From Lonicera japonica (Eukaryota; Streptophyta; Magnoliopsida; Dipsacales; Caprifoliaceae), in the NCBI GenBank assembly GCA_021464415.1, contig JAKCWG010000526.1, positions 36,001-100,000 on the forward strand: a stretch of 64,000 nucleotides of DNA, read 5' to 3'. Below the pieces are notes generated by a model. The model worked only from the letters and a program-made list of their open reading frames with translations. It did not search any database and was not told where the DNA came from. Made by a program: the position numbers and the translations under genes. Below, in pieces: positions 605 to 51,408 of the stretch; within the stretch, counting starts at the first letter, position 1; every line of letters starts with the position of its first letter.

Positions 605-688
605 TGTCGCGCGACATTTCGGTGCCTGGCTCTTTGTCGCGCGACAATGTGGCCATTTGTCGCGCGACAAACTGACCCACCATATAAA
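605..688 (+). promoter_or_regulatory. Promoter of antisense gene A: three TGTCGCGCGACA palindromes plus TATA box
   Basis: Perfect 12-bp palindromes lie at 605-616, 635-646 and 658-669. A TATA box (TATAAA, 683-688) follows the last one by 13 bp. The gene A start codon is at 836. Copy 2 has the same layout at 51327-51408 with the motifs partly mutated. The same palindrome precedes the TATA boxes of gene B and of the LTR. The sites are seen directly; regulatory function is inferred from position and repetition. Confidence 0.75.
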
Positions 689-835
689 CCCCTTGCTGAG
701 CTCATTCCACCTCATTCTCTCCTTTCTCTTTCTCTCTCTAGCTCTCTTTTTCTCTCTTTTCTTCTCTCCCAAGCGCGGAAGCTCTGCCGTGTTTTTGATT
801 TTTCCGACCTTTTCACACATATTCTACCTATATCG

Positions 836-3800
836 ATGGACCCTGCTCATCTCGACCGATTGGAGGGTGACCAGGAGGAGGTCACCTTTACTGACGCTCA
901 GGGCGTTCTTCGCTGCAGCCCTCATCACGACGACTGGGCGGACTTGGACTGGTATGATGAGGATGGGATAGACCGCGGTCGGGCGGTGGTCTATCGGGAT
1001 GCTATCCGAGCTGCTCCGGTCCCGGACGTCCCGTGGCTTTTGATGGAGCCCGTTTCTCACGAGATTCGTCGTCGATCTCTGGTATGTCTTCTTTCGTGCA
1101 TTTATTTGTTCTGCTTCTTGTCGTTTCCTGTATTCGTTTTAGATAATGTTAGTATGCATGTCTGACTAGGAATAACGCCCGATTTTTAGCGAACACATAC
1201 TTTTACCTGTGATACCTCTTAGTTTAGAAAATTACATAATGTACCCCCATAACTCTATAACTCTCATAATTACACCAAAGTACCCTCAGGTTTTGAAAAT
1301 TACATAATTTACCCTTATAACCCCTATAACTCTCATGATTACACCAAAGTACCCTCAGGTTTTGGAAATTACATATTTTACCCTTATAACCCCATAACTC
1401 TCATAATTACACCAAAGTACCCTCAGGTTTTGGAAAATTACATAATTTACCCTTATAACCCTCTAACTCTCATAATTACACCAAAGTACCCTCAGGTTTT
1501 GGAAAATTACATAATTTACCCTTATAGCCCTATAACTCTCATAATTACACCAAAGTACCCTCAGGTTTTGGAAAATTACATAATTTACCCTTATAACCCC
1601 ATAACTCTCATAATTACACCAAAGTACCCTCAGGTTTTGGAAAATTACATAATTTACCCTTATAGCTCCTATAACTCTCATAATTGCACCAAAGTACCCT
1701 CAGGTTTTGGAAATTACATAATTTACCCTTATAACCCCATAACTCTCATAATTACACCAAAGTACCCTCAGGTTTTGGAAATTACATAATTTACCCTTAT
1801 AACCCCTATAACTCTCATAATTACACCAAAGTACCCTCAGGTTTTGGAAATTACATAATTTACCCTTATAACCCCTATAACTCTCATAATTACACCAAAG
1901 TACCCTCAGGTTTTGGAAAATTACATAATTTACCCTTATAACCCCATAACTCTCATAATTGCACCAAAGTACCCTCAGGTTTTGGAAATTACATAATTTA
2001 CCCTTATAACCCCTATAACTCTCATAATTGCACCAAAGTACCCTCAGGTTTTGGAAATTACATAATTTACCCTTATAACCCTATAATTCTCATAATTGCA
2101 CCAAAGTACCCTCAGGTTTTGGAAATTACATAATTTACCCTTATAACCCTATAACTCTCATAATTATACCGAAGTACCCTCATAACCCCATACTCGTTCC
2201 TTTGTCTGCAGTGGGTTGGCCGCGGTTGGGGTTCCCCCAACGCTATATCTTCGGAGTGGCGACGGGCACCGGCCCCTGTCCAGGAGTTGATTCTCGCGAC
2301 TCCTTTTGGCTCCCTCTTCGACGCCCTCCCAGAGCGAGTATCTAGGGCGACAGTTTTAGTATCGGCTCTGGCTTGCCACTGGTGGGACACCACCCATACC
2401 TTTCACTGGAGCTGGGGGGAGATGACGATGACCCCCCTCGATTTGTTTGCTTTGACCGGGATCCCTTCAGGGGGGTCCCCATCCAGATCGACGTCCCCTT
2501 GCGTCTGACAGCCGAGGGCATTGTTAGTTCATTAGGATGGTTTCCGGAGCGACGGAGTTCCGGCGACACGATTCCTCGGGGCGTCTTGGTTACGCGGTTA
2601 GCCACAGAGAGGGCTCGACTAGCTGCTTCAGGGGTTCCTATGACCCGTCAGGAGGCGCGCCAGTATGCCCGCGTCCTCCTTCTACTGACACTTCATGATC
2701 TATTCGAGGCTCGTGGTGGGGACACGGCTCATCTTTGGTGGTTGCCCTATCTTCGGGACTTCAGCCTCATGTTTGACTACGACTGGGGAGGTTTCATTCT
2801 TGCAGTCCTTTACGATGCCATGGACCAGGTCTCTCGTCATTTAGCCCTGAACCTCAAGGGCTTTTCTTTGCTGTGGGAGGTACATTTTTTAGTCTTTCTG
2901 TCTTTGCTTCAGTTCTTTGCTCATTACTTGTTGATCATTGCTGATTTCTTCTATCTTTCCTTTTCAGAGCTGGTTTGTAGCTTATACCCGTCTGGGTCGC
3001 GCCCAGGTGGATCTCCTCGTTGAGAACGAGGACCAGTTCCCTTTTCTCCGCCGATTCATCGCGGGGAACTATAGGGCTCCCTATGTATACCGGACTCGGG
3101 AGACCGGAGCTGCTGCTGTCCATGACCTGCGGGAGGAGCAGGTAAGAATATTTTTAGTTTTCTTGCTTTTCAATAGTCAGATAGAGTAGAATATATAAAA
3201 TACTGAAATAAAATCTTATTCTCTTTTCAGATTGAGTGGGCCCCTTGGGGTGATCTGGGTCCTCATCATGGGTATGGTCGTGCTCTGACCGCCTCGAGGA
3301 CCAGGCGGCTTATCCGGGATGAGTACGGCCTTCTCTTCTACTTGGGTGAGAGGGTCATTCGTCAGCACACGCCATCCCAGTGGCCTCGTGTTCCATTGTT
3401 CCCTCCTGTTCTGATGAGGCGGACGGGCGAGATCGACCCGGTGACGGTGCAGGCTTTGGTTGACGGACTCGGCTTCCAGACGTTCGTCGAGGAGGGAGAC
3501 TATGCTATTTTTGCTGCCCGTTACCTGATGAGGGAGCCGAAGGGGACTCGGGGACGGGTCTTCTATGAGAGGTATCGGGCATTGGGGGGTGATCCTCATT
3601 ATATACGGGGACAGACCCATTTAGCTAGGGTGGTTCCGGGTCATCTGCCACCTGTCCCCGATCAGAGGGACAACATTCCGGATTCTGAGGATGAGGATCC
3701 TGAGGGAGAGAGGGATGTTCCTGCTGCGGCTGAGGGCGGCGGTCGGCCAGAGGGCGAGGGAGGTGATGCGACAGCCGTTCCGGAGCCGTCACCTCAGGCG

Positions 3801-4798
3801 ACACCTGCGGGGGAGCAGCGCGCTGAGGGCTTCGAGTTTCCCACCGGCCCTTCCGTGTCTCCGGGGGGCCTTTTTGCTGCTGCTGAGGCTGCTGAGGGGA
3901 GAGCGGGATTTTCTGAGAGGTCCTGGGAGCCCGCGGACCTTGGGGCAGATTTTGATCAGTTTGGGCGGACTCCTCCCGCGGCGGCGACTACTCCTTCTAG
4001 TGGGGTACCTCCTTTGGGGGCGACGGCCATGGTGGATCCTCCGGGGGTCCGAACATACGCTACGTTGACCCCTCTACCGGCGACTGTCATGGGGCCTCCC
4101 GCCCGATCTCCGGGCTTTGGTGGCTCATCCTCTCGTCCACCCTTGTTCCCCATTCGTGAGGAGGGAGGGTCTTCTTCTGCAGCTGCTCCTGCGGGGTCAT
4201 CTATTTCGTGGGTAGATCTACCTCCACTCCCCAGAGATATTTCTTATGTCGGCGCGGGCCTATGTCGATATTCTGTCCCGGAGTATCCCCTTCCCGAGGA
4301 TACTTTTGATTTCTTGGGTGGTCGTTCTGATGATGAGGTATCTTCTTCAACTTCTCCTGATACTTTCATGTTTATATCTATTTATTTTGACTGTGCTGAT
4401 TCTCCTTTTATTGTATGTCTTTTTTACAGAGAGTGGGTGTACGGGTGGCAGATCTTCGGGCTTGGTATGCCCAGTATTTCTACAGCTGGAACCTGCTCCA
4501 GTACGTCGGTCGAGACCCTCCAGCCTACATGCGTGACTATCAGAGGGCTATCGACATCTCTTTACGGCCGGACGACCCCCTGACTTCCTCCCATGCCCGG
4601 ACGGATTCTCGGAGGAGCAGTAGTCGGACTTCCAGGCGTTCCCGATCGTCGGTGATCCGTCCTACGGCACCGGTTCAGTCTACGGGGCCTTCTCAGGCGG
4701 CAGTTCCTCCTGTTCCCGGCGTCCCAGTTGTTGATCTTACCCCTGAGGAGGGCTCGGGAGATAGTGGGAGCGTGTCGAAACGCGCCCGAGTAGATTAG
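836..4798 (+). CDS. Antisense gene A: plant-mobile-domain (PMD)-like protein, five exons, one 1-nt lesion
   Basis: Predicted exons are 836-1081, 2212-2879, 2968-3141, 3231-4337 and 4430-4798. All four introns are GT-AG and phase 0. Every exon is a multiple of three except exon 2 (668 nt), which has lost one base at a G run (2470-2475). The product would be about 854 residues. Around residues 143-167 it carries the HTFHWSWGEMTMT...LTGIP signature typical of plant mobile domains (MAIN/MAIL1-like, also found in transposons). Exon 4 is rich in Pro, Gly, Ser and Glu and probably disordered. Exon 5 has a Ser/Arg-rich stretch and ends in SKRARVD, resembling a nuclear localisation signal. The gene is antisense to gag-pol. 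Homologues lie in copy 2 (51548-56858) and in the other Tat family (34348-36335). Molecular function is unknown. Confidence 0.8.
1205..2190. repeat. Minisatellite, about 69-bp unit, filling intron 1 of gene A
   Basis: About 14 tandem copies of a unit containing CTCTCATAATTACACC, CCCTCAGGTTTTGG and TACATAATTTACCC. Spacing averages close to 69 bp and varies by a few bases. The array sits wholly inside intron 1. Copy 2 has a related array at the same place (51950-52975), so it predates the split of the copies. An open frame through it (1430-1789) only reflects the repeat. Confidence 0.92.
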
Positions 4799-5117
4799 TT
4801 TTCCCTTTTCTGCATTTAGTGTTAGTTGGACAGATATGTATTTATTTTAGACGGATATTTTTAAAAACTGTTCTTTTATTGGTTTTATAAAAATATCTTT
4901 ATCTGTGTTTGATTATACTTTTATTATCTGTCTGTGCAAGATATATACATATATATATAAGAGTCGGTAATTTAAAAGTCGTACCTTCTAGTGTAGTGAT
5001 ACTTATGTTTCCTGCAAAAAAGAACAAAGTGAGAACAGAAAAGCATCCAGAAGTGATTCTTTTGGCAAAGATGACCATTATGTATAAGAAAAAAGTAGGG
5101 TGCCCCCCAGATGGGTT
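4799..5117. other. Spacer between antisense genes A and B
   Basis: AT-rich spacer that would hold the 3' end of gene A and the distal promoter of gene B. No coding frame is conserved with the copy 2 counterpart (56859-57197). Confidence 0.6.
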
Positions 5118-5227
5118 TGTCGCGCGACAATCCCTCCTGGTCATGGGTTTGTCGCGCGACACTTCCCCCTGAAAATGGGTTTGTCGCGCGACAAACAGGT
5201 ACAGGACCCTCTTTTTTGCTATAAATA
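5118..5227 (+). promoter_or_regulatory. Promoter of antisense gene B: three TGTCGCGCGACA palindromes plus TATA box
   Basis: Perfect palindromes at 5118-5129, 5150-5161 and 5182-5193 are followed by TATAAATA at 5220-5227 and by the start codon at 5266. Each palindrome is preceded by ATGGGTT, so the repeated unit is longer than the palindrome. Copy 2 keeps two of the sites (57198-57209, 57230-57241) and the TATA box (57268-57275). The layout matches gene A and the LTR. Confidence 0.75.
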
Positions 5228-5265
5228 CCCCCATCTTCCTTCCTTCATCCCCACACCTCTCCAAA

Positions 5266-6523
5266 ATGTCTTCCTACCGTACCAACTCTGATTTTTCTTA
5301 TGTTAAAGCTCAAGATGCTTTGATATCTTCTGAAAATGGTTTGAACTTTGGTGCATTCAGTCCTTTGGCGGGCTGGTGCCATCGTCCTGTAGATTTCTCC
5401 TTTCTGTTAGGTGCTTTGTATTTCTGGAGTCCTGCGGACCATCTCTTCCGTTTTGGACTAGATGAGCTCTGCCCAACCTATGAGGAGTTCTCCTGGCTGT
5501 TACGTTCTGACGTTCGTCTCCCGATGGCAGTTCCTATAGAAGGAATCGGTCCCCGCGACATGCTAATTGCTCTGTTAGCCATTCCCCAAGCGGCCTGCGA
5601 TGGTTTCATTGTCGACGGGCTCCTTGACCTCCACAAAATGGTGAGGTTCTTTCATCGTTATGAAGATAGGGCCTCTTACGGCGTGGGGCGTACTGCAGCG
5701 GCCCTGATTTGCCTGGTTTCTGATATGCTGCTGGTGACGGGTTCTTCCCGTGTTGATCCGACTATCTTGAGTCTGATTTACCAGGCTAGAAATGGGGAGT
5801 CTATAGTGCCGATCATTCTTGCAGAGACCCTGAATGGTCTTGATGTTGTTCAACGGGGGGCCTCGCCCTTCTTTCGGGGGAGCCCGCGTCTGCTATACAT
5901 GTGGCTGCTAGAGCGCTTTCGATCGGTGGGTTTCAGCGGAGTTCGGCTCGACAATCCGACCCATTTCTTCCATCGGCCTCTCTTTGGTGCTTTGACCATG
6001 TCTTCCTCTGATTGGACGGTGTGGTTTTCGGAGAACTTTCGGGCTATCCGGTGGAACATTCCTTGGTGGAAGCTGAGGAAGATGGTACTTAGTACTGGGG
6101 GTCAGAACTACGTTCGGCTCCGCGGGCTCTGGTTTACTTCCTTTTATCTCCCTGGGCGTCTTCTTCGACAGTTTAACATTCCTCAGGAGGTTCCCCTTGG
6201 TCTGAACAACTTCTCTTCTGAGTCTAAATTTGTGACCCCACATGTTTCTTTATCGGTTAGAGAGGATGTGGCGTGCTCGACTGACTCGTCAGTTTAACTA
6301 TGCTCGTTTCGGTATTTCCAGGCCTCTCCGGGCTGACATTATCCGCTCTTGCTGGCAATCTCTAGAAGGAGAGCTGATTGATGACCCCTTTCAAATGGAG
6401 TGGTTCCGATTCATGGATTCTGAGCCTACAGAGGATGGCATTGTCTTTGCGTACCAGATTTTGGATGAGGCTCGAATTGATTTGGCCGCTGAGGACCCAG
6501 TGTGGCCAACCCCTAGGGATTAG
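5266..6523 (+). CDS. Antisense gene B: DUF7745-like protein with one frameshift
   Basis: Single-exon gene of about 419 codons. The first frame (5266-6297) and the second (6242-6523) join at a 1-nt insertion near 6250-6262; copy 2 lacks this extra base at the same point (near 58350). Residues 61-79 contain FRFGLDELCPTYEEF, matching the F-F-(D/E)-L-P-T-EE-(Y/F) pattern of plant DUF7745 proteins. No membrane segment or signal peptide is evident. The gene runs tail to tail with pol, 226 bp apart. Homologues are at 57314-58629 and, in the other Tat family, 29719-33745, so this is a conserved component and not chance. Its biochemical role is unknown. The DUF7745 match is by eye. Confidence 0.82.
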
Positions 6524-6749
6524 TTTCTTCTTTGTATGCTGTACTTCCTTTGTAACTCTTGGTGTTCTGAACCACCTCTTTAATAATATATGAAGGGACT
6601 TTTTATGAGAAATAAATTTCTTTACAAAGCTTTAAACCGGGCCTGAAGTCACTTCTCAGGTTGCCTACGTTCCCCCCTTTTTGATTTTTCCAGAAAATAC
6701 GATATTCGAGTTGGGGCTCAGGTTTACGTAGTTCTTATACACGTCGTGC
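6524..6749. other. Tail-to-tail gap between gene B and pol
   Basis: The 226-bp gap separates two convergent genes. AATAAA at 6611-6616 on the plus strand could serve as the gene B polyadenylation signal. A conserved segment near 6640-6730 (in the pol direction ACCTGAGCCCCA, then TTCAGGCCCGGTTTA) also follows pol in the other Tat element (29310-29410). It may be part of the shared pol 3' end. Confidence 0.55.
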
Positions 6750-7724
6750 TTATTGATAATACTTCTTCAGTCGGTCCATGTTGACTGGTGAATGTAGTAA
6801 CTGCCCGTCTAGGTCAGTGAGTATAGCGGCGCCTCCTGTATTGATTTCTTTGACGATATACGGCCCTGTCCACTTCTGCCCGAACTTTCCCCTCGGATCT
6901 CTGGCTGGCTCTCGAATTTCTTTCAACACGATGTCATTTTCATTGATACCCCGAGTCCTCACTCTCTGGTTAAATGCTCGAGCGATTCTCTTCTGATACC
7001 CTTGATGGTGGTATGCGGCTTTCAATCTTTTCTCATCTAGTAAGGCTAGCTCGTTATAACGTGCCTGGACCCACTCCAGTTCATTGACCTGATTCTCTAG
7101 CATTACTCTGAGGGAAGGGACCTCTAACTCGACAGGGAGGACTGCCTCCATCCCGTATGTAAGCGAGAACGGGGTTGCCCCGGTAGAGACCCTTTCGGTG
7201 GTGCGGTATCCCCACAATGCATATGGTAATTTCTCCGGCCAGTCCCGGCAGGTGTCGGTCATCTTGCTTAAGATATTCTTCAAATTCTTGTTGGCGGCTT
7301 CAACTGCCCCATTGGTTTGCGGTCTATATGGTGAAGATTTATGTCGGGTGATACCGTATTCCTCCATGACTGTATTAGCTTCTCCTTCGAAGTGGGTGCC
7401 GTTATCTGAGATGATCTCGTGTGGGACCCCATATCGGCAGACAATATTCCTTTTGATGAATCGGGCAACTTTCCTGGCATCCAGGGTTTGGTAAGATTCG
7501 GCTTCCACCCATTTGGTGAAGTAGTCGATGGCTACTAGTATGAATTCATGGCCGTTGCTGGCTTTGGGTGAGACTTTCCCAATGACGTCAATTCCCCAGG
7601 CTGAAAAAGGCCAGGGAGCAGTCATGTTGTACAACTCTTTTGGAGGAAGCTTCTGGGACTTAGCATAAATTTGGCATTTGTGACAACGGCGTACATGATC
7701 AGCGCAGTCAGTTTGTAGGGTAGA
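6750..7724 (-). CDS. pol: pol, C-terminal part: integrase core and C-terminal domain
   Basis: This is the continuation of pol after a nonsense codon at 7725-7727; the reading frame does not change. It contains the second half of the zinc-binding domain (RRCHKC), then the catalytic core with WGIDVIG, IISDNGTHFE and PQTNGAVEAANK. The last Asp and Glu are 35 apart, as in the D,D-35-E family. A GPY-type segment (KWTGPYIV) follows, and the protein ends in LKKYYQ. Integrase joins the cDNA to host DNA. All catalytic residues are present here, unlike copy 2. Confidence 0.9.
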   Translation of the reverse strand, partial: STLQTDCADHVRRCHKCQIYAKSQKLPPKELYNMTAPWPFSAWGIDVIGKVSPKASNGHEFILVAIDYFTKWVEAESYQTLDARKVARFIKRNIVCRYGVPHEIISDNGTHFEGEANTVMEEYGITRHKSSPYRPQTNGAVEAANKNLKNILSKMTDTCRDWPEKLPYALWGYRTTERVSTGATPFSLTYGMEAVLPVELEVPSLRVMLENQVNELEWVQARYNELALLDEKRLKAAYHHQGYQKRIARAFNQRVRTRGINENDIVLKEIREPARDPRGKFGQKWTGPYIVKEINTGGAAILTDLDGQLLHSPVNMDRLKKYYQ

Positions 7725-10700
7725 CTAGAAATACCCTTGCCTGATGATCTTGCGGGCAAGCGTATGCCCGCTCATATGAGGTCCGCAATCGCCCCCATGT
7801 ATCTGATCCATCATTCTAACTGATTCTTCTTCGGTGAGACATTGAAGATGAGTCCCGTCGTAGTTCCTCTTATATAATCTTCCGGCACAGAGTATGAATC
7901 CTGATGCTAGTCTCCTGAGTGTGACCCGTGTTCTCTTGTCTGCTTTCTCGGGATACTGATGGTTCTTCAGCAGGTTCCAGATATCATAAAACCAAACGGT
8001 TGAGTCACCGTCTTTTTCAATTTCCACCTCAAGGGTCATGCAGTGCACGGGTCCTGATTTCTTTTGTACCGTGAGGGTTATTTCTTCCATCCCCTCCGGA
8101 ATATCGATCATAGATGGCAGGGTTGCCAATGCGTCAGCAAAACTGTTCTGGGACCTGGGGATATAGTAAAACTCCACACGCTCGAACCTTCCTGCGACTT
8201 CTTCTAGTCGGGCGAGGTAAGGGACTAATTTCTCATCTCTGATCTTCCATTCCTTCAGAACTTGATGGACCACTAGTGCTGAATCTCCGTATACCTGTAT
8301 TCTCTTTATACCCCTTTGAAGAGCGATCTCTAACCCGAGTATGCAGGCTTCATATTCGGCCATATTGTTGGTGCAGAAGAAGTCCAGTCGATATGATACC
8401 GGGGAGTGAGTTTGGTCTGGAGAGACTAACAGGATGCCTATCCCGTTTCCGTTCCGATTGGCGGCTCCGTCAAAGTACAACCTCCAGTCTTCATTGATCT
8501 CGACGTTCATGATGGTTTCGTCCGGGAATTCGGCTTCTTCTATCATGTCTCCCAATATCGGATTGTGGGCCAGGTAATCAGCTATGATCTTGCCTTTGAC
8601 TGCCTTCTGGGTCATGTAGGTGATGTCGAATTCGGAGAGTAGAAATAACCATTTTGCCATTCGATTCGAGAGAGCCGGTTTCTCGAAGAGGTATTTCAAC
8701 GGATCAATCCGTGATGCCAGGATGACTGAAAAAACTAGCATGTAGTGCCGTAGTTTCCGTGTTACCCAGACGAGAGCGGTACACGATTTTTCCAATGGTG
8801 TGTAGTTTATCTCAAATGGGGATAGCTTTTTGCTGAGGAAATAGATGGCCTGCTCCTTCCGGGTATCGGTGAGGTGTTGGGCTAGCATTGCTCCCGCGGC
8901 TGAATCAGTGACGGTTAGGTATAGAATTAGTGGTAGTCCGGTCTGAGGCGGGGCTAACACTGGGGGCTTGGAGAGGTAATCTTTGATTTTGTCAAAAGCC
9001 TCCTGGCATTGATCGTTCCATTCTCCTGTTGAAGACTTCCTCAGGAGTTTGAAGATGGGTTCGCACTTTTGAGTGAGCTGAGAGATAAACCTACTGATGT
9101 ACTGCAGATTACCCAAAAAACCCCGGATTTCTCTCTCGGTACGAGGCTCGGGCATGTCTTGGATAGCTTGAACTTTAGCGGGGTCCACCTCGATTCCTTT
9201 CTTACTGACGACATATCCCAGGAGTTTTCCTTTGGTTACCCCGAACACACATTTCTGCGGGTTGAGTCTCATCTGATACTGGCGGAGCCGATCAAAGAAG
9301 GCTCGCAAGGCTGGTACGTGGCCTTCCCTCTCTTTTGACTTGATTATCATGTCGTCTACATACACCTCTACTTCTTTGTGAATCATGTCGTGAAAGATAG
9401 CCGTAGCTGCCCTCTGATATGTTGCCCCGGCGTTCTTCAGCCCAAACGGCATAACGGTGTAGCAGTATGTTCCCCACGGTGTGATAAATGCTGTTTTCTC
9501 CTGGTGATCCGGGTGCATCTTGATCTGGTTATATCCGGCAAAACCATCCACAAATGACTTCAGGGCGTGGTTGGCAGTATTATCTACTATCAAATCGATG
9601 TTGGGCAATGGAAAATCGTCCTTTGGACAAGCTTTATTGAGATCCCGGTAATCCACACACATGCGGACTTTCCCATTAGCCTTTGGAACAGGCACGATGT
9701 TGGCTAACCACGAGGGGTACTCGATCACCCGTAAGAATCCCACACTCAGTTGTTTCATTACTTCTTCTTTCACTTTCAAGGACCATTCTGGCGTAAGTTT
9801 CCTCAGCTTCTGTTTGACGGGCCTAAGTTCTGGATTGGTGTGTATTTCGTGCATGACTATTTGACTGTTCAAACCCGGCATATCTACATAAGACCAGGCG
9901 AAGACATCCACATACTCTTTCAGAGTTTGTGTGAATTCTTCTCTCTCTGTCCCACTTAGGCTTGCCCCAATGCGGACCTCTTTTCTTTCCTCCTCTGTTC
10001 CGAGGTTAATCACAAGAGTGTCTCCTTCCTCGCTTTGTATACGTTGCTCCTCCCGTTCAGGGTGTTCGTTCATTCTTTCCAATTCCATATAAGCAATTAC
10101 AGAATTAAAAATAACAGGATAACGCAAAATAGACTCTTCTTTATTGATACTAGTATTTACAGGTACAAGTTTAAAAAGTTCATTTAGGAGTGACTCCTTC
10201 CTATCCTTATCCTCACTCTTATCTCTCACCCTTACAATTTCGCTCTTTTCCCTTTCCCCTTGGTAGTCTGGATCAGCGTATATCAAGTGTACAGGGTCGT
10301 CTCCTGGCTCATCATCTCCCAGAGCCATGATGTCGAAGAGATCTCCGATCATTTCTTCCTCTTCGCCTTTCATGTCTTCACTTTCTTCCTTCGGCCCGAT
10401 TGTCAACTTGGTAGCGAAGCTGTGTACGGTGTTTTCTTTGATATATAGGTCCTCTTCATAGAAGATTTCCCACCCAGGAAGGTTCTCTCCGTCGCTGTTT
10501 CTCCAAGGCTCCTGGAAGCCGCAAAAGGGGAAGTCCTCTCCTTCTTTGACAAAGAACCCGTTCAGAGAGCTGAAACTCGGATACTGATGCCCTCGACCCC
10601 TTTTTTGTTGATCGTCCTCTTCAGTGTGTTGGTACCCCAAACCTTCCCTCTCGTACCTTGCTACTGGTTCCAATGCTTGAAGTAGTCCTGGTTGTCCCAT

Positions 10701-11312
10701 TCCCAGACCGGCTCCAGGCAAGTATTTCATCATTCTCAACATATTTGTAATCTTGGTGCTGAGACCGGGGATATTGTCAGGGGGAAGATACCTGATTGTC
10801 TGGGTGCTAAGAGTTTTCACTTGAGGCTCGTAAGAAAAGCCTCCTAACTGTATGCTCTGGCTCCCGATTCCCAAAACTGGTAACTCCATATCCGCCAAGG
10901 TCCTTTCAGGATCTCCTTGGATGGTAATTATGTTCCCTTCAAACGGTATCTTGATCTTTTGGTGCAAGGAGGAGGGGAGTGCTCCTATGTCGTGTAGCCA
11001 TGCTCTTCCCAACAGTAGGTTAAAACTGGAAGGAATGTCTATGATTTGAAAGTCGGCCGGGAAGCTTTCGGGACCAACCATGAGATCAAGTTTCAGAGAC
11101 CCCAGAACGGCCCTCCTGGTATTATCATAGGCCCTGACAGTTACAGCGGATGGTGAGAGCTCTGAATCTGAGATACCCAAGCATCTGGCAGTCTTTAGGG
11201 GGCAGACATTTATGGTCGACCCATTGTCGATGAGAACTTGTGGCAAGATCTTCCCTCGGGTTTGGACGGTGATATGGAGAGCCAGGCTGTGTTTTCTCCC
11301 CAACGGAGACAA
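7725..11312 (-). CDS. pol: pol: protease, reverse transcriptase, RNase H, second RNase H, integrase zinc domain
   Basis: One open frame of 1195 residues. The aspartic protease site is LIDNGSTINV (about residue 25-35), DNGST replacing the usual DSG/DTG as in other Tat elements. A G-patch-like motif (LPGAGLGMGQPG) lies near residue 195. An acidic spacer leads to the RT with VCVDYRDLN-type motifs and YVDD near residue 652. RNase H follows (about 760-890), then a second, archaeal-type RNase H (WRLYFDGAANRNG, about 944-1080), a hallmark of the Tat lineage. The frame ends in the integrase zinc domain at a TAG where copy 2 has Trp (GYF-stop against GYYW). Apart from this stop and the UGA at 11337-11339, the polyprotein is intact. 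Confidence 0.95.
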   Translation of the reverse strand: MSPLGRKHSLALHITVQTRGKILPQVLIDNGSTINVCPLKTARCLGISDSELSPSAVTVRAYDNTRRAVLGSLKLDLMVGPESFPADFQIIDIPSSFNLLLGRAWLHDIGALPSSLHQKIKIPFEGNIITIQGDPERTLADMELPVLGIGSQSIQLGGFSYEPQVKTLSTQTIRYLPPDNIPGLSTKITNMLRMMKYLPGAGLGMGQPGLLQALEPVARYEREGLGYQHTEEDDQQKRGRGHQYPSFSSLNGFFVKEGEDFPFCGFQEPWRNSDGENLPGWEIFYEEDLYIKENTVHSFATKLTIGPKEESEDMKGEEEEMIGDLFDIMALGDDEPGDDPVHLIYADPDYQGEREKSEIVRVRDKSEDKDRKESLLNELFKLVPVNTSINKEESILRYPVIFNSVIAYMELERMNEHPEREEQRIQSEEGDTLVINLGTEEERKEVRIGASLSGTEREEFTQTLKEYVDVFAWSYVDMPGLNSQIVMHEIHTNPELRPVKQKLRKLTPEWSLKVKEEVMKQLSVGFLRVIEYPSWLANIVPVPKANGKVRMCVDYRDLNKACPKDDFPLPNIDLIVDNTANHALKSFVDGFAGYNQIKMHPDHQEKTAFITPWGTYCYTVMPFGLKNAGATYQRAATAIFHDMIHKEVEVYVDDMIIKSKEREGHVPALRAFFDRLRQYQMRLNPQKCVFGVTKGKLLGYVVSKKGIEVDPAKVQAIQDMPEPRTEREIRGFLGNLQYISRFISQLTQKCEPIFKLLRKSSTGEWNDQCQEAFDKIKDYLSKPPVLAPPQTGLPLILYLTVTDSAAGAMLAQHLTDTRKEQAIYFLSKKLSPFEINYTPLEKSCTALVWVTRKLRHYMLVFSVILASRIDPLKYLFEKPALSNRMAKWLFLLSEFDITYMTQKAVKGKIIADYLAHNPILGDMIEEAEFPDETIMNVEINEDWRLYFDGAANRNGNGIGILLVSPDQTHSPVSYRLDFFCTNNMAEYEACILGLEIALQRGIKRIQVYGDSALVVHQVLKEWKIRDEKLVPYLARLEEVAGRFERVEFYYIPRSQNSFADALATLPSMIDIPEGMEEITLTVQKKSGPVHCMTLEVEIEKDGDSTVWFYDIWNLLKNHQYPEKADKRTRVTLRRLASGFILCAGRLYKRNYDGTHLQCLTEEESVRMMDQIHGGDCGPHMSGHTLARKIIRQGYF

Positions 11313-11336
11313 GTCTTCATCTGAAAATGACAGACT

Positions 11337-13730
11337 TCATTGGACTGTGAGTGACCCGATCATGTTTGGCAGTTGTTCGGGCGTGGAGTCCGGCGATATG
11401 ACAGCCTCATCCAGGAGTTTAATGAAAGCGGTCCTGTGAGGTTTGGAGGCAACCAAGAGGCCCCAAATGGTGATGTGTGCCTGGGTTTTCTTCAACTGTT
11501 CCAGTACTCGGTCTTCTCCTACTTCTTTTGGAGGCGGTGATTTTTCGGCATCCATCGGTGGTGGATGGTATACCTTTCCTGAGCGGGTAATCTGTTGTAT
11601 CCAAAGGGATGTTGGGTCTGATCCCTCTGAAGTTTCTGACGACTCTGGTTCTGCCGACCAACTAAAAGTCCCGGGGGAGGTTTCTGTCATACAGATTGTC
11701 TCCTTATGAGGGGGGCGGGGTTTCCATGGTTGTTTTTTCTTGTCCTGGGTCCATCCTATCCCAGCTTTCCCAGGATTGGTTTTGATGGTGAGTGGTTGCG
11801 AGATCCCCTGATTTGTCTTTCCTAAGCCCTGCCCAGGTAGGAAGTTCATCTTGGCCATCCATTGGTCAATTATTGGGTTGAGGCCTGGGGCAACTTGTGC
11901 TTTTGCCGATAGCATAACGGGTGCCTTATAGGCTGGATCGTCCCGAATGCGTCCTACGGGATCGAAGCCTTCGTCAGTGGTTAAGGCGTTAATTCCTGCA
12001 GGTGGAGCATGATTGGGGAGGGGGTTGTTGGTAACATTGGGCCCGCCGGGTGCGGGGATGGTTCCGGCTTCAATGAGGTCCTGGATACGATGGCGGAGAG
12101 CTAAACAACGTTCCGTGTCATGGCCTGCCGCCTGATGGTACGCACAGTTCTCATTCATTCTCCAAGTGTTGGGGATAGGATTTGGTGGAGGGCGTGGGTT
12201 GAGTGGGGTGACTAGTCCGGCCTTTTGGAGTAGTTCCAGGCTTTTGACCAGAGTAGTGGGGAGGGTGCAGAAATTTCTCCTTTTCTTGACCTCGGTGTTA
12301 GAAGAGTCTCCCTGCGTAGGCCAACTCATTGGGGGGACTTGCGGTGACTGCTGAAATGGGTTTTGTTGATATGGGTACGAGCTTAGTTGGTTTACGGCTG
12401 GAGTGGCCGTCTTTCTTCCAGTGTAAGAGGCCTTCTTGGTATCCGTGTCTGCCTTTCTGGTCAATTCTTCCTCTACCTGTGACCCCATACTCAACAGGGC
12501 TCTGAAGTGTGGGAATACATGCTTTCCCATGCAGTTCAATACAGCTGGAGTAAAATTCTTCTGTATGATTTCTAACTGCTCTTCTTCGTCGGGCCGTTTG
12601 GACATTTGGGATGCCATTTCCCTCCAGCGGGTGACAAAGTCGCTGAAGCTTTCTTTCTCGCCTTGCTTGGCCATTTCCAGGTGTTTACGGGTAATTTCCA
12701 AATTCTCGTTGGACCCGTACTTGGTCATGAATTCTTTGACGATATCCCCCCAAGTTTTCGTGTGGTGTTTCTCTAGGTCGAAGAACCATCTCAGGGCTGC
12801 CCCCGTGAGAGTCATGTGAAAAGCCTGAGCCAGCTCCAGCTCTCCACAGCCGGACACTTGCATGGATCTGATGTAGGATTGGAGATGGGTTTTGGGGGGT
12901 GTAGTACCAGTGAATTTGGTGATAGAGGGGAGCTTAAATCCTTGAGGTAGTCTGGCTTCTGGGTAGAGGGAAAAGGCGTTCATGTCTGTGATCTCGTCTG
13001 CCCCTTTCATCAGAGAAACACCTCTTTGCAGAACCTTCATCTGCTCTTTCAATTTCTTCATTTCTTCGCTCTCTCTTGACACCTCATCGGGCTGTTCCCG
13101 GGCTATCATCGATTCTGCGTATACTGCCCGGAGTCGGTTGATGTCTGGGTACTCATTGGGAGGGGCTATTGGGGCTGGTGGAATAGGTCTTGCGGGGACT
13201 TGTGGCCATGGTTGATATTGGGGATCGAGGCCTTGCTGAGGTTGTGGCCAGACGATGGGTGGCTCTTGTTGTTGGTATGTGGGGCCTGAATCCGGGGCCC
13301 ATTGGTTCTGATTGTTGGGGTCGGTTTGAACGGGACCGGCCATGTTGGGGCCCGTTTGGGGTGGATTAGTTCGTTGGATTGGGGGAAGTACTTGTGAAGA
13401 CTGTCCTTGGTTCGGATCACGATTCGGTGGTAGTCGATCAAACCCCGGTGGTGCAGTTCGTTCGGCTGACAATTCTTCTATTCGGATTCGGGTACCCTGT
13501 TGCTCGTTCGTGAGATTTGCCAGATCCCTGCTGACGGTCATGAGTAAACGGTGCATTTCGGCTAGGGTTGGCTGAGCTGATGATGCCTCGGCTCGGCTCT
13601 GATCTGTCTCTCGATTCTCGCGTTCATCGGCCATTTCAGGTGTGCTTGGTCTTACTAGTCTTCCGGTGTGATCACGGCCGGCCCAACCTTCCAGTCTGTT
13701 TGTTGCTTCACGACTGTAGACGAAAATCAC
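11337..13730 (-). CDS. gag: gag polyprotein (Tat lineage)
   Basis: 797 residues. The N-terminus has EGWAGRDHTGRLVRPS, a pattern also seen in the Athila gag here (start at 39163) and in the other Tat gag, which supports this start. A Pro/Gln-rich region (about 95-200) is followed by a coiled-coil-prone stretch and the retrotransposon gag domain (about 265-430, with LTGAALRWF and FVTRWREMA). Near residue 530 is CAYHQAAGHDTERC, a Cys-His motif in place of a classic CCHC knuckle. A G-patch-like motif (LPGQGLGKTNQG) lies near 627. The stop (UGA, 11337-11339) is in frame with pol eight codons upstream of its first Met, so gag and pol form one frame with a single stop. Confidence 0.92.
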   Translation of the reverse strand: MIFVYSREATNRLEGWAGRDHTGRLVRPSTPEMADERENRETDQSRAEASSAQPTLAEMHRLLMTVSRDLANLTNEQQGTRIRIEELSAERTAPPGFDRLPPNRDPNQGQSSQVLPPIQRTNPPQTGPNMAGPVQTDPNNQNQWAPDSGPTYQQQEPPIVWPQPQQGLDPQYQPWPQVPARPIPPAPIAPPNEYPDINRLRAVYAESMIAREQPDEVSRESEEMKKLKEQMKVLQRGVSLMKGADEITDMNAFSLYPEARLPQGFKLPSITKFTGTTPPKTHLQSYIRSMQVSGCGELELAQAFHMTLTGAALRWFFDLEKHHTKTWGDIVKEFMTKYGSNENLEITRKHLEMAKQGEKESFSDFVTRWREMASQMSKRPDEEEQLEIIQKNFTPAVLNCMGKHVFPHFRALLSMGSQVEEELTRKADTDTKKASYTGRKTATPAVNQLSSYPYQQNPFQQSPQVPPMSWPTQGDSSNTEVKKRRNFCTLPTTLVKSLELLQKAGLVTPLNPRPPPNPIPNTWRMNENCAYHQAAGHDTERCLALRHRIQDLIEAGTIPAPGGPNVTNNPLPNHAPPAGINALTTDEGFDPVGRIRDDPAYKAPVMLSAKAQVAPGLNPIIDQWMAKMNFLPGQGLGKTNQGISQPLTIKTNPGKAGIGWTQDKKKQPWKPRPPHKETICMTETSPGTFSWSAEPESSETSEGSDPTSLWIQQITRSGKVYHPPPMDAEKSPPPKEVGEDRVLEQLKKTQAHITIWGLLVASKPHRTAFIKLLDEAVISPDSTPEQLPNMIGSLTVQ

Positions 13731-14374
13731 GTGGCGAAGATGAAGGAAGACTGTGATGCGACTCGATTTTTGCCAAAAGAACCACTAAAAATTGCCGAGA
13801 AGAGCCTCAAATTTTAAAAAGGGTGTCGAAAAGTAAGCCGTAAAGTGGTACATCCTCTATGGCTGTTTGACAAGTGTTTTAACTGACTCAATCTTAGATG
13901 CAGCGCAGGTGTTCGAATGGTTAAGGCTTCAGGCTCCCTCCTTTTTGGCAAGACCTTGCGATATACCCCAAGGGCGGGTACGTGCAAGAATCTTTTGATA
14001 TACTTCCCGGGTACGTGAGTGTTCTCGTCACTCGATATACCTCGGGGGCGTACTTGGCCAAGGAGAGTGGAAGTAAATGCTTTCGGTTTATGTTGGCCCA
14101 AGCAAGCCAACTCCCTACTCACTTATAATACTTCCGAGGGTTTGGGGTAAATTCACACTCGTAGAACCAATGCATGATTTGTGATAGTGCGTGTAAAGTT
14201 CGAAATGTTGGTTTCACAAATATCATTATCTTTATTACGTCTTTTCGAAAAACTCCCATTTTTTAGAAAAAGGTTTCTTCTCAATCAATTAACATGAGTA
14301 GGGAAAGCAGTAAAAGCAAGTTTTTCAACAGATAAACAAAGGTCCACATATAAGAGTCTAGTTTTCTAATGGTG
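13731..14374 (-). other. 5' leader of copy 1 with conserved GTAC...GTATATC repeat block
   Basis: Non-coding leader between primer site and gag. In the element direction, 14056-13947 carries three units starting GTAC and ending GTATATC, separated by short stems such as GAGTG/CACTC and GCAAG/CTTGC. The same block is in the plus-strand Tat element (21601-21712), although the two LTR families differ greatly. Preserved noncoding sequence suggests an RNA function, for example packaging, dimerisation or translation control. That role is inferred. Confidence 0.7.
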
Positions 14375-14392
14375 TCCCCAGCAGAGTCGCCA
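14375..14392 (-). promoter_or_regulatory. Primer-binding site (probably tRNA-Arg)
   Basis: The minus strand reads TGGCGACTCTGCTGGGGA one base after the LTR end. It begins TGG (complement of the tRNA CCA end) and matches the primer site I recall for Ogre/Tat elements, assigned to a tRNA-Arg. The tRNA identity is from memory; the position is as expected for priming minus-strand synthesis. Confidence 0.8.
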
Positions 14393-14393
14393 C

Positions 14394-15955
14394 TGTGAGA
14401 ATCCGCAAATGCGGCCCCCCGGGTCTCGTCCCCGTTGGTGGTGGGGGTCATGGGACGTCGGAACTGATTCCGTCGTTCCATTTGCTGGAGCGTTTTCGTT
14501 GATTCATATCAAGTGTCCCTACGTTCTATTTCTAGATGCAAGGGGGTTCATTCAGAGTCGCCAGTACGTTTTACGAGAAAACGGACAAAAAAGGTCGTGT
14601 AAGAGGAAAGGCTATAGACAAGCCTTTCTTTACACGTTTGTCTGCGAAACCGGGATTCTTATAGGGTTCGGAAACTATATTACGGTTTGGGAAGGTGTTA
14701 AGCACCCATTCCGCCCTTTCGGTCTCTAGTGGTCTTATATGCTTATTCTATGTTGAAAAACTTGGATGCTTTTACCGACAGTCTACTACTTTCTAAAAAA
14801 ACCCTAATTTGGGAAAACGGGGAAAGGAATGAAAACCTTTGTGTTCCGAGATCCGATGTTTTTATATTTAAAAGATGTAATGACAAATGACAAAAACCTT
14901 TTATTTTTGAAAGAGTATTCCGTATTATTTCCTCAGATAATGACGGTTTTCTCGAGTTGTGATTATTTTGAAAAAGGTTCGGATCTTTATGTCGGGACTA
15001 ATTCAATATGGAATATGAACTCTTTGAGGAGAGTTTATCAGACACGTCGCAGTCTATGGAAAAGACAAGATATGTGGATTTTAATTCCTAGATAAGTCTT
15101 TATCGGTCCGGGGTTTGAAAACAGGGTTTATCCGGACGATAATGTACTTACTCTTCTGGTTTTGAAAGTAGTTTTATCAGGGTCTTTTGTTTTGAAAACG
15201 GTAGACTATTGGTAACTTGACAATAAGTTTATTCAAATAAAACGTGGACAGAATAACAGAAGTAAAACAAGTACACAGATATCTAATCTTAAATACTAGA
15301 AGGGACTTTCTTTACCTTCCCGACGAGAATAATAATAAGAAAGAAAATATAATACGGCAGAGGGATCTCCGGCGATAATAATTTTCTCTTTCTTTAGATA
15401 TTTCCGAGAAATCGATTCCGGAGACGGGACACGTCGAGTGTCGAGGATAGATTCGATAATTCTTCAGAAATAAGATAATAGTAGAAAAGTGCTTGATAAA
15501 AATCAAATCTAAAGCTCCAAATTCTCAGATTCCAATTGCTGCCTCTCAACCCTTGGAGGTGTTGGCCTATTTATACTGCTCGGGAGAGATTGTCGCGCGA
15601 CATTTCCTTAAAAAAGGAGAATGTCGCGCGACATTGTGATATGTCGCGCGACATACGGGAATGTCGCGCGACAAACGGCTGAAGTGATGGTTCTGACAGA
15701 TTGATGTGTCAGAAAGTGGTTGGTCTGGTGCAGAGGGGGAATGTCGTGCGACATAGTGGAATTGTCGCGCGACATATCAGGGATTGTCGCGCGACAATGT
15801 GATATGTCGTGCGACAATCTCTCTGAAGAACAAGTTTGTCGGGCGACAAACCCTCCTAGTGTAGTACCGGGTCCTCGGGTGGGTCCCGGACCCAAAATAG
15901 TAGTTCTCGGAGGTCGTTAGGGTTCTTGCGGGGGTCACGGATCGGGGTGTCTACA
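14394..15955 (-). repeat. 5' LTR of copy 1 (1562 bp)
   Basis: In the element direction it starts TGTAGACACCCC at 15955 and ends CTCACA at 14394, next to the primer site. It aligns over its length with 48254-49793. U3 (about 380 bp) contains nine TGTCGCGCGACA-type palindromes and a TATA box; R-U5 is about 1.15 kb. The flank at 15956 (GTTAT) would be half of a target duplication, whose partner is outside the window. Confidence 0.92.
15568..15848 (-). promoter_or_regulatory. LTR promoter of copy 1: nine palindromes plus TATA box
   Basis: TATAAATA (minus strand, 15568-15575) is preceded in the transcription direction by palindromes at 15591-15602, 15622-15633, 15642-15653, 15662-15673, 15742-15753, 15763-15774, 15785-15796, 15805-15816 and 15837-15848. 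Six are perfect TGTCGCGCGACA and three have one change. This promoter would drive the genomic RNA, and it shares its motif with the promoters of antisense genes A and B. Confidence 0.8.
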
Positions 15956-16333
15956 GTTATCCATTATCTTGAGTCCGAACCTGGGTCTAAACGGGTACCA
16001 GATCTTTGGTAACAATGTTGTTATGTTGTGGTCGCCTGACGGTTGACGTTGTAGTGTCTTCCTCCTCCTCATTCCTAGAGGCAGATTTCCTCATATACTT
16101 CCTTAAAAGTTCATGTAAGGTTTGATTTTCCATTCTGAGCAATGCCACGTTGATGACGGAATCCCTGCTAGCAAGACCATGGTCATCGTAATTCTATGAA
16201 CCGCCCCCCTGTTCATGTTGGCCGGCAAATTTGGAGGGTCGTTTTGTTGTTGTTGAACTGGTGGCAATCTACCATCTTCCTCGGTGGGTTGCACCTGCGA
16301 AATTAGCGAGGTGGTTGCTCTAGACTGAGGCAT
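15956..16333 (-). pseudogene. gag N-terminal fragment of an older element, cut by insertion of copy 1
   Basis: A minus-strand frame starts at 16333 (MPQSRATTSL) and runs leftward with interruptions to the LTR terminus of copy 1. It sits 90-100 bp downstream of a primer site and LTR, where gag should begin. The sequence is Gln/Pro-rich and then acidic. It cannot be assigned to a lineage with certainty. Confidence 0.55.
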
Positions 16334-29718: not shown

Positions 29719-32700
29719 CTACCTCATCAGCATCGGATCGTGCTCAACTGTCTGATGAACACGACGCCAAATGTGGAACACAACATCATATCGAGTCACC
29801 TGGGTAATACCAACCTCCTCACCATGAAACCGTCGGGTATAGCGGGTGGACCACAAACCTGCTAAAGTCGTCTCCAACCTCGGGGTGATAAGAAGAGCCA
29901 TTAAAGAGAAATCTCTCAATGGAAGGGGCACACTCAAAGGGACGCCAAACTGTCTCATCAACCGCCCGGGTATATATAAAGATGTTTCCCTCAATCCGCG
30001 GATCCGTATATAATTCTGCCCGCCCATACTCGTCATCATCATCCTCATACGCCACCAGGGAATCTCCCAACGAATCAAAGAGGCTGACTCCGAAAAGTAA
30101 ACGGCCCAATCAAATGATGTTATTCAATGAATAAAAGCATAATCATGATAAAGAAAGAAGTCCCGAGAATCCCAAGGAAGAGGGGGCTCCAGAAATCAGA
30201 ATCTCTCAATCACCCACATATATAGCAGATAAGGACTGTCTCGAAAATACTCAACTTGACACTAAACTAAGGCATCCAAGCCATTTAGTGTCTTCGCCAA
30301 CAAAATGGGAGTCGCTAAATGACCACGTCTAGTGTAACACCCCTGCCTTAATCTACATGATAACTCGTAATTAAGACCTAGAGTGCTACTAACCCATCTT
30401 AGATTAACTAAAATGGGTATATATGTAAATGCATAAAGAAATACAGACAGTAATATCATGCATGTCAAACATCAACTTGATAATCATACTGGTGATGTTA
30501 GTACTACACACAAATATATATATTCATGTTACATAACTAACTAAGAAATCCATGCAAACATACTACACTTTGGCCTAGCCGTGGCTTCCCCGGATAACAT
30601 ATACACAACAAAAATGAATCCGTATAAGAGCATTCTATATCAGTCCCTAACCCGCCGTCTTATTAATATCCCACGTCCCCTATGTACCTGCATTATTTTA
30701 GAAAATGGGGTGAGCTCACAGCTCAGTATGGGGAAAATATAGGGGAAAACGTGTTTGAAAAACATAATTATTAATTTCGATAATAGTTTACACTTCCCCA
30801 GTCAAACCATGAAATAATGCAATTTGATGATAATCTACTCCTTACCCATCAGTGCAATTAAATTACATGATTTCACACATAAATAATGCATGCTCATGCA
30901 TATGCAGGTTACCTCCCTTTGTGTCAACCATTACATCGAATCACCATAATATGAATGAGCCAAGATAGGAAACGATATGAGTTTGCCTGCCCAAGACCAT
31001 AGCCAGCTTTTATCAGGAGATATAACTGGACTGAACTATAGCTATAACAATAATCGTGGGCCTGACCGCCCCCAAGAGACAAAAGATTGAGATCATAACA
31101 TGGCCTCTCCGTCTCGGGTGAATATCAACAGATAATAACGATTTGGACCACAGTCCACAATATCACCTCAACAGCTCATTTCCATATCAATCAAAATATT
31201 AGTGCCTTGCCGTTGTCTAGATTTTCAGACTGCTCACCGCTGGTGCTAGACAGCCGACGACTTGCTGACCCCCCGGAGGTTTAGGGCTTTTTAACCCAAG
31301 GGCACCAGGCCCTGCCTATTTTCCATACCGGCAAGCACTAACCACAATTATTCCCCTTCACCGATGGAAGGCCCAAACATAGATATAACTGTGGGCAACA
31401 TCCCACCATATAACATAACTGAGAATATATCCACATACAAATGAAGAACTCCTGAAGAGATATAATCGCATGTTCAAGAATGCCTCAGGAGCATAGAATG
31501 CCATCCACATCATAGAGAAGAGATATAGTTTTCTCAAGAGACAATTTCCATGCCATATGCCATAGGGGGCTCCGAACTTGCCACGAGATCATCAAGATGC
31601 TGGGTTGACACAATAATGATGCAAATGTGTACAACATGCTCTAAATGCAAGCTAGAAACAATATATGCCATATAAACCTTATCAATCATCATACTTGTCC
31701 CTTGGTGTATACCAAAATCATTTATTAGTTCAATCATATCAACTTAATACATATACACCCGAGGGACATCCCGTAGCTATAAAATACTATATGAATATCG
31801 AGTTTATATGGCATACCTTGCTTCATTTTATGAAATTCATAGCTCAATCATGCATAAAGTGCATTTCATGCTCTTAAAACAATTAGAGACAACATAAGCC
31901 ATATAAACTCTATCAAGATCATGTTCATGTCCTTTAGTGTATACAAAACCCTTTCCTTATCAAATCAACACATACACACCCAAAGGACATCCATATGAAT
32001 CAATAACATGTAATCATAGAGCTTAGATGGCATATCTTGCTTCATATCGTAAAATCATAACTCAATCATGCAAAACATATGTATATCCAATGATATGACC
32101 AACATATGAACATACATGTATAAAATCATTCTTATATAATCAATAACAAGAGATATGCACTTTATATCGAACATATATGTATAAAATCATTCATCTTTAC
32201 ATAAATAAAATCATATCATCAAGTTTGAAAAGCATATAACCCCTACCTCAAGTGTAGAGACCAAAAGAAAGAAGAAAGCTATAAATCGAAGCCCCCTTCG
32301 GTAAAATCCTCAAGCTCTCATCTCACTGTGTTCCTAACATAGCCAAATCCTTGAATTAATAGAGTATAAACCCAACCCAAGTAGCCAAAGCTCATGCCTG
32401 AGCTTCTATAGAAGAAAACCAAGGTAGAAGATGATGAATAGTACCTTAGAGATGGGTTTGGATGATTTCAAGCTTGAATCCTCGCTTCGGACGGATAGGT
32501 GCGTAGAGGAGTGTGGAAATGTTTGGCACGAAGTTTGGATGAAAAATGACCAAAAATGGCTTAAAAACGTGCTTAAGTCGGTGGGAATAGTTAACTGGCG
32601 GACCGGTATGCCAAATACCGAATACTGGTCCGCGGAGCACAAATTTCCCAAATATTTGGTGCCGGACCGGTATGCCAAAAACGCCATACCGGTCCGCGCT

Positions 32701-33745
32701 TTAATTTTTGGGCCTTGGAGTACTGTTTTTGTTTTGGCCATAAATTTTCGCTCGTAACTCCGATTGAGGCGTTCTTTATCTCCACGGAAAGGTATTTCAA
32801 AGATCTACAAATTTCTAAGAGAAAGTTTTCCCAAATTATGGATAGATGTTTCTCAGAAATTCACCGAAGACAGCGCTCTGCCGAAACGCTACCGAATGAC
32901 CAGAATTTTGCAATGGGTCTACTTTGCGCCCTGTTTTGACCCACGAGGAGTGTGAATTGGACTTTAGCCAAAACATAAAAGTTGTAGAATGATACAAATA
33001 TTAGACACCTTCGAGAATGGAATCTCATTCCAATAAATAAAGAAGAAATTACGATAGCTCAAAGATAGCTAAAAATAACAAATTGCAAAAGACCAAAACT
33101 TCTTATTTACCAACCAAAATCAAATCGAACCACCCAAATCACCTAACGATCACTCGCATAAATATAAATAAGCGAATATAATTCAATTTAATACAAATTA
33201 AAGTATGGGGTATTACATCTAGCCTCAGCTATGACCCGGATGATCAGAGGGTCTACAAGAATTGCATCTCCAGTAACTAAAACCATCTGAGAAAAAGCAT
33301 AAACAAGATAAGCAGCAATCCGACCTGAATAAAATGCCGGATCATCACCATGACGAATGAAGAAGTCCACCATGTGACGCAGATGAAGTCGCCCGTCTAC
33401 TATCATCGATCGACAGTCACTCTCCCTCAAACCCATCAACTCAGCCAACATAATTGGCGGGCTCCTAACATCTCTCAGGGACGCCAATGGCCAAGAAACA
33501 TCATGTTGCATCAGTAATGTGAACTCCTCAATCGTCGGGCATAACTCATCCAATCCAATGCGGAAATAGTGATCCTCTGGATCCTCGAACTGAACAAGAC
33601 CTAGGAGGAAATACCAGTTGATATCATGAGAACACCATCGATGAAGATGGCTCGGGTCGCCCCAATTGAGGCCATAGTCAGCCTCAGCGAAAGACAAAAA
33701 ATCGGATAGAAGGGCAAAAACAGCAGTGGTACAAAAGGTAGACAT
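29719..33745 (-). pseudogene. Antisense gene B (DUF7745-like) of the second Tat element, split by a solo LTR
   Basis: The first part (33745-33218) starts MSTFCTTAVF and has FRIGLDELCPTIEEF, the same motif as gene B of copy 1. The second part (30332-29719) has IRWEIPWWRMR and GGQNYIRIRGL, matching the copy 1 protein in order. Between them sits a 2885-bp LTR with target duplication TCTAG. Apart from the insertion and some frame damage near 30109-30330, the frame is well kept. Conservation of this gene in two diverged families, always antisense and downstream of pol, argues that it matters to the element. Confidence 0.85.
30333..33217. mobile_element. Solo LTR, about 2.9 kb, TGTAACACCCC...TATTACA (Del/Tekay-like)
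   Basis: The ends are TGTAACACCCC and GGGGTATTACA, flanked by a perfect 5-bp duplication TCTAG (30328-30332 and 33218-33222). No coding frame is seen inside. Size and termini fit LTRs of Del/Tekay chromoviruses, but orientation and family are not proven. A pair of GC-rich inverted repeats lies at 32598-32633 and 32662-32697. Confidence 0.85.
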
Positions 33746-51326: not shown

Positions 51327-51408
51327 TGTTGCGCGACATTTGGGTGGGAAGCCGTTTGTCGTGCGATAAACTGGTCATTTGTCACACGACAACCGTGTTC
51401 AGTATAAA
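51327..51408 (+). promoter_or_regulatory. Gene A promoter of copy 2 (decayed palindromes plus TATA box)
   Basis: TGTTGCGCGACA (51327-51338), TGTCGTGCGATA (51357-51368) and TGTCACACGACA (51380-51391) precede TATAAA (51403-51408). All three differ from the perfect motif only by transitions at CpG positions. Confidence 0.7.

Follow-up and report, generated by a model that had tools for sequence, protein, structure and literature searches.

How does a retrotransposon come to carry the same short palindrome in front of promoters that face opposite ways? The question is raised by a stretch of 64,000 nucleotides from Lonicera japonica (assembly GCA_021464415.1, contig JAKCWG010000526.1, positions 36,001 to 100,000), called here the window, which holds a long terminal repeat (LTR) retrotransposon with two antisense genes, A and B. 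Arrays of the 12-mer TGTCGCGCGACA stand upstream of its LTR promoter and of the promoter of either gene. The answer that we favor, with a probability of about 0.6, is that a family-specific, self-regulating switch uses the palindrome as its binding box, and that in this switch a PMD protein encoded by the element would act on its own box as VANC does. The evidence comes from one host genome and two element families, and it consists of sequences and predicted structures.

How regular is the arrangement? At up to 2 mismatches, the window holds 26 sites of the 12-mer where 0.55 would be expected (100 shuffles, none with more than 2), and all of them fall in two copies of one family, family 1: 15 in copy 1 and 11 in copy 2. 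The sites of copy 1 (12 exact, 3 with one mismatch) all lie upstream of its three TATA boxes. Three exact boxes precede that of gene A (605-616, 635-646 and 658-669; TATA at 683..688, plus strand), another three that of gene B (5118-5129, 5150-5161 and 5182-5193; TATA, TATAAATA, at 5220..5227, plus strand), and nine occupy the U3 of the LTR (15591..15848), whose TATA box has the same form as that of gene B (15568..15575, minus strand). The nearest box is 13 bases from TATA in gene A, 26 in gene B and 15 in the LTR. These places, and the range of 13-26 bp, are those of the original prediction, and two of its details needed correction. It had counted nine copies in the LTR, where six are exact (starting at 15591, 15622, 15642, 15662, 15763 and 15785) and three are one-base variants (15742, 15805 and 15837); and it had noticed none elsewhere in a 16-kb element, where indeed no further site appears outside the three promoters at up to 2 mismatches, but the element measures ~18.7 kb. 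Copy 2 it had overlooked.

The constant part of the box is wider than the 12-mer. As judged from 73 family-1 sites that carry no more than one mismatch, it covers ~18 bp, about GWWTGTCGCGCGACAWWC: the two positions on either side of the 12-mer are A or T in 66 to 72 of the 73 sites, with G and C favored at the positions after those. Spacing is regular as well. In copy 1, 9 of 12 distances between boxes lie within 0.1 of whole helical turns (20-22 or 31-32 bases), the exceptions being 30, 23 and 80, and the gap from box to TATA is 15-16 in 10 of 11 family-1 LTR regions (46 in L006); of 14 box-bearing gene B regions, 13 show a gap of 26-29 (59 in L002). For gene A, the value of 13 comes from copy 1; copy 2 retains only the farthest box within one mismatch, and no TATAAA was found in the stretch searched of three other gene A copies of the family. 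A role of the palindrome as an RNA hairpin was set aside, as its placement follows the TATA boxes.

Did the promoters inherit their boxes together, as parts of one ancestral promoter? Common descent had been judged no easy explanation, which holds between promoters: beyond about three bases the flanks of the boxes are hardly alike, agreeing at 7.2 (A-B), 7.7 (A-LTR) and 8.6 (B-LTR) of 24 positions, with a null of 7.2. It does not hold within one promoter, where flanks are shared through tandem duplication (mean 10.7/24 in the gene B promoter, against the same null). Because the flanks are alike within a promoter and little or not between promoters, the boxes multiply locally, through short duplications, and the box is what the three promoters clearly have in common.

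Does the pattern extend beyond copy 1? Copy 2 is older and 78-79% identical to it (LTR at 48258-49794, body to about 62246), and its boxes occupy the same three places: the LTR (49466..49651; 2 exact, 4 with two mismatches), the front of gene A (51327..51391; 1, 2 and 2 mismatches, with the spacings of 30 and 23 seen in copy 1) and the front of gene B (57198..57241; one box with 2 mismatches, one exact). Their decay is mostly at CpGs. Across the 886 Mb of the genome (967 contigs), the 12-mer has 29,561 exact copies and its reversed control, likewise palindromic and equal in base composition but with one CpG less, has a single one. All 18 sites sampled from the 29,561 (15 plus 3 more, taken one after another from the beginning of contig C1, several sharing one array) lie in family-1 promoters, either that of the LTR or that of one of the two antisense genes. 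The original prediction had left it to a genome scan whether the palindrome is confined to this family and these positions; the sampled sites are, and with them stands the cis arrangement of the one-factor regulon that it had proposed.

Outside the window, the family-1 LTR and gene A regions and the family-2 LTR regions discussed below were mostly found through the box itself. Gene B could be approached independently. For ASCERTAINMENT without the motif, 12 of the 102 scored gene B matches (query P0006) were taken by protein similarity alone, and 11 of the 12 have the box. The upstream stretches of 5 of the 150 listed matches of P0009 were also read; four have boxes, and the fifth locus, L060, has a different LTR-like sequence upstream, free of the box of either family, and was excluded from the gene B count. 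Of the 16 comparable loci reached through the protein alone, 15 thus carry the box before gene B. At L037 (C9:7548370 region), the gene B frame is open, both boxes were lost in one deletion and the TATA region was kept, which makes this locus a natural test case for box dependence.

Another question is to whom the factor that reads the box belongs, the host or the element. The best witness is a sister element in the same window, at about 20.0-36.3 kb, whose pol is 69% identical to that of family 1. The family-1 box was not found in it. Instead, decayed copies of a distinct palindrome precede its LTR TATA box (boxes at 20969-20980 and 20988-20999, TATA at 21093) and its gene B TATA box (boxes at 33856, 33875 and 33894, spanning 33856..33905, 19 apart, with 1, 1 and 2 mismatches; TATA at 33839). 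The antisense gene B that follows is in two pieces (33745-33218 and 30333-29863; 29863..33745, minus strand) and shares 41-45% amino acid identity with that of family 1. In better-preserved copies of this second family, CCARCCGYRCGGYTGG occupies the LTR and the fronts of both antisense genes; some of these copies are on the same contig, and two are insertions on contig C1, either one complete with LTR, A and B. Its core, ARCCGTACGGYT, occurs 5,752 times in the genome against 104 for the reversed control. In 18 family-2 promoter regions (4,712 bp, mostly found through the box), 67 sites stand against 0.2 in a first-order Markov null, and when 4 of the 118 matches of the DUF7745 profile (PF24924) were examined, all 4 gene B loci had family-2 boxes. 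The gap from box to TATA is 16-17 in 7 of 8 family-2 gene B regions and 28 in 3 of 3 gene A regions; for the LTR, 3 of 10 regions gave no value, their orientation not being set.

The two families do not use each other's box in the regions compared: at up to one mismatch, the family-2 box is in 0/31 family-1 regions and the family-1 box in 0/21 family-2 regions. Many of these 52 regions were found via the box, so that the comparison tests family specificity and geometry, not presence; L036 was omitted because its upstream sequence is identical to that of L035, and overlapping loci (L003-L005, L006-L008 and the like) were counted once. Each of the two boxes is a palindrome built on the core CGYRCG, and they differ in their outer thirds, TGT...ACA in family 1 and ARC...GYT in family 2, the pattern that one would expect from two diverged relatives of one DNA-binding protein. 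Because the two families live in the same nucleus and meet the same host factors, family-specific boxes point to a factor that travels with the element. The sister family with its own palindrome is the strongest argument for an element-borne factor, and it tips toward the element the choice between host and element that the original prediction had left undecided.

No third PMD family with a box of its own came to light among the loci fetched (12/102 for P0006, 4/118 for PF24924, 5/150 for P0009), which belong to family 1 or 2, except L060. There, at L060:187-268, and at L021:750-870, both outside the window, a third palindrome, AGTAAGATCGATCTTACT, forms arrays in LTR-like sequence; it has 478 exact copies in the genome and 0 of its reversed control. 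Inside the sister gene A (34964-35799), a 383-bp repeat is present as two identical units, either one containing a 5S rRNA-like stretch (34.2 bits, Rfam cut-off 38); the arrangement resembles a Cassandra-type TRIM element.

What could such a factor be? The antisense genes are the natural candidates. Gene A (836..4797, plus strand) is a gene for a PMD-type protein, with about five putative exons (836-1081, one from 2212, 2968-3141, 3231-4337 and 4430-4797), and part of exon 2 matches the PMD profile at 35.1 bits (cut-off 34.9). Gene B (5266..6297, plus strand) is a PMD/DUF7745-like open reading frame whose scores fall below the cut-offs of both profiles (17.2 bits for PMD; 24.7 bits for its relative P0001); PMD and DUF7745 are the only Pfam families that match more than 4 of 23 gene B relatives at E up to 10. 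In copy 1, both frames seem to be broken, that of gene A in exon 2 and that of gene B near its 3' end; other copies have open gene B frames of 432-449 amino acids, and a 457-amino-acid protein recorded in Lonicera macranthoides is 95% identical. Gene A also harbors, in its first putative intron, a tandem array of 68-69 bp units (1222-2183), with a counterpart at the matching place of copy 2 (51899-53002).

The predicted structures take the matter further. Both models of gene B align to DNA-bound VANC21 (9lnj), far above the next-ranked structure, in a second aligner run on Foldseek candidates. Foldseek itself gave no match in the PDB at E 0.001 for either model, and VANC21 surfaced only in the second aligner; a profile of the 23 gene B relatives found no match among PDB sequences at E up to 10, in a set whose inclusion of the 9lnj sequence is unconfirmed. 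A putative VANC21-like fold of gene B is supported by these models.

The switch may then be pictured as follows. The short arrays precede three TATA boxes, those of the LTR promoter, which would yield the genomic RNA, and of two PMD genes facing the opposite way. We infer that the PMD protein of gene A, of gene B or of both would bind the box as a dimer, and that the bound protein would hold the LTR promoter and those of the PMD genes in an active or unsilenced state. The result would be a positive loop, by which the element controls its own genome and its own regulator together. The sister families would have exchanged one box for another, as expected when a regulator and its box evolve together.

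Could the boxes be by-products instead, CpG-rich palindromes that act as methylation or recombination features and were copied between promoters without any regulator? Their decay lends this idea some substance. Copy 1 spans C174:33277–C174:51956, and its two LTRs (14394..15956, minus strand, for the 5' LTR; L016:5277-6839, left of the window, for the 3' LTR) are identical at 1558 of 1563 positions. By these marks it is a recent insertion, because its LTRs differ at only 5 positions and the 5-bp duplication GTTAT flanks it on both sides. CpG transitions within boxes account for two of the five differences (15596 and 15789, in the boxes starting at 15591 and 15785, against L016:6479 and L016:6672), which suggests that the boxes were methylated after insertion; of 57 mismatches counted in boxes, 37 are CpG transitions. 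The short duplications that multiply boxes within one promoter would also fit. Against the idea, between subfamilies, mostly with open gene B frames, the CpGs of boxes were retained in 510 of 576 comparisons, against 12 of 54 for other promoter CpGs and 1558 of 2295 for coding ones; these counts are pairwise and not independent, with small n for the other promoter CpGs. They come from 10 gene B promoters (window copy 2, L002, L019, L036, L037 and L046 omitted), in which box identity is 0.85, lowered by the alignment of two-box with three-box promoters. Across 13 aligned gene B promoters, mean pairwise identity is 0.96 in the box, 0.79 between boxes, 0.75 upstream, 0.84 downstream and 1.0 at TATA. 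Because box CpGs and box columns are retained between subfamilies, active lineages seem to preserve the boxes despite their fast mutation. As the spacing to TATA is moreover nearly fixed in most contexts, and flanks are hardly common to different promoters, we regard by-products without a regulator as very improbable.

Two other explanations accept that something binds the box, and they ask who does so and to what end. In one, the boxes are sites of one or two host transcription factors, captured in all three promoters as in many LTR enhancers. Host-factor boxes are common in the U3 of LTRs, and one factor could read the CGYRCG core that both boxes have. The TTTGTCG flanks of family 1 resemble sites of plant IDD zinc fingers; these and the auxin-response TGTCGG are, we presume, the host sites to consider under this explanation, and a CAMTA CGCG box, another presumed candidate, does not seem to fit by its flanking rule. 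However, the two families use different sites of 16-18 bp in one nucleus, and not each other's in the examined regions, in each box the outer positions vary about as little as those of the core, and 29,561 copies would presumably titrate such a factor. We therefore consider a host factor unlikely, if still worth keeping in mind. In the other, the binder is the same element protein and the boxes serve negative feedback, a form of copy-number control. In most contexts, boxes are 13-29 bases from TATA, where a bound protein could block initiation, and MAIN and MAIL1, PMD proteins of the host, take part in the silencing of transposable elements (TEs), according to the available text of PMC5418596 and PMC7156037. 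Yet the predicted fold resembles an anti-silencing protein, VANC21; MAIN and MAIL1 are also required for the expression of genes with a promoter motif (PMC7156037 and PMC9899485, in the parts available); and a family with 29,561 boxes is very abundant. Repression is thus improbable in our view, and an element-encoded activator or anti-silencing factor remains our preferred reading.

What kind of element would run such a switch? Gag and pol of copy 1 lie on the minus strand, and the two antisense genes sit between pol and the 3' LTR. A domain search places gag, with a G-patch, at 11337..13730; the next frame (7725..11312) contains reverse transcriptase (residues 542-701), RNase H (793-895) and a second RNase H, RVT_3 (953-1064), and the integrase core follows in a frame of its own (6750..7634). 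This is the layout of angiosperm Tat elements such as Ogre and Retand in the available text of PMC6317226, where the PMD-type extra frame is most prominent in Ogre and occurs in 57% of Ogre elements. By the second RNase H between RNase H and integrase (aRH), and by the PMD-type frames of genes A and B, the element is an Ogre/Tat-type Ty3/gypsy retrotransposon. Copy 2 is interrupted by a 1.3-kb sequence present twice (53535-54817 and 62247-63502), in opposite orientation and 92% identical.

Which known systems resemble this one? Two of them are DNA transposons: Spm/En, whose protein TnpA binds repeated 12-bp sites in its own promoter, and the VANDALs, which are Mutator-like. Spm/En differs in that its sites lie in subterminal regions and its protein is unrelated. 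Among retrotransposons, antisense accessory genes occur in Grande, RIRE2 and Retand; those of Retand have a Transposase_28 domain, and no cis box shared with the LTR is described for them in the available text (PMC7264820, PMC11963269). Here, PF04195, the profile of that domain, matched none of seven copy-1 open reading frames and three gene A pieces at E up to 1. The PMD proteins encoded by Gypsy elements are likewise products of extra genes in Ogre-type elements. They form two clades, PMD-A1 and PMD-A2 (PMC5418596, as far as available), which genes A and B might match; the accessible parts of that paper and of PMC6317226 describe no function, promoter or DNA target for them, whereas a target box is proposed here. 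The host proteins MAIN and MAIL1 are PMD proteins too, and the genes down-regulated in their case have a common promoter motif, DOWN; they differ in being host genes, and the form of the motif given for MORC1, CATGCAGTTT, is neither of the palindromes described here (PMC7156037, PMC9899485, in part). In the literature text covered by our search, no account of a box common to LTR and antisense-gene promoters was found, and the 12-mer turned up in a paper on a chicken gene.

The proposed switch would work like the VANC/VANDAL system of Arabidopsis. There, too, a TE-encoded protein, with an anti-silencing role, goes with short family-specific motifs repeated in the non-coding parts of the element, and related families differ in their motif (PMC5735166 and PMC10398659, in the parts available). 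Both honeysuckle families repeat a family-specific short motif in their own non-coding parts in the same manner, and the fold predicted for a gene B relative resembles that of DNA-bound VANC21. Unlike a VANDAL, the element is a Ty3/gypsy retrotransposon with gag, reverse transcriptase, integrase and LTRs, its boxes are palindromes at three TATA promoters, the profile of gene B relatives detected no sequence similarity to VANC among the PDB sequences searched, and a role in demethylation would follow by analogy. A broader idea, on which we would wager at somewhat less than even odds, is that the PMD of Ogre/Tat retrotransposons and VANC have in common a fold that binds DNA sequence-specifically. 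The antisense proteins of these elements would be self-activating anti-silencing factors, with palindromic targets co-evolving family by family across LTR and regulator promoters, and the host MAIN and MAIL1 would derive from them or have given rise to them. The locus offers a concrete candidate pair of protein and DNA box, with a specificity control built in: two families and two boxes in one genome. If the switch is real, a self-contained regulon spans both strands of a retrotransposon, and sequence-specific anti-silencing by TE-encoded proteins reaches beyond DNA transposons, to a high-copy retrotransposon lineage.

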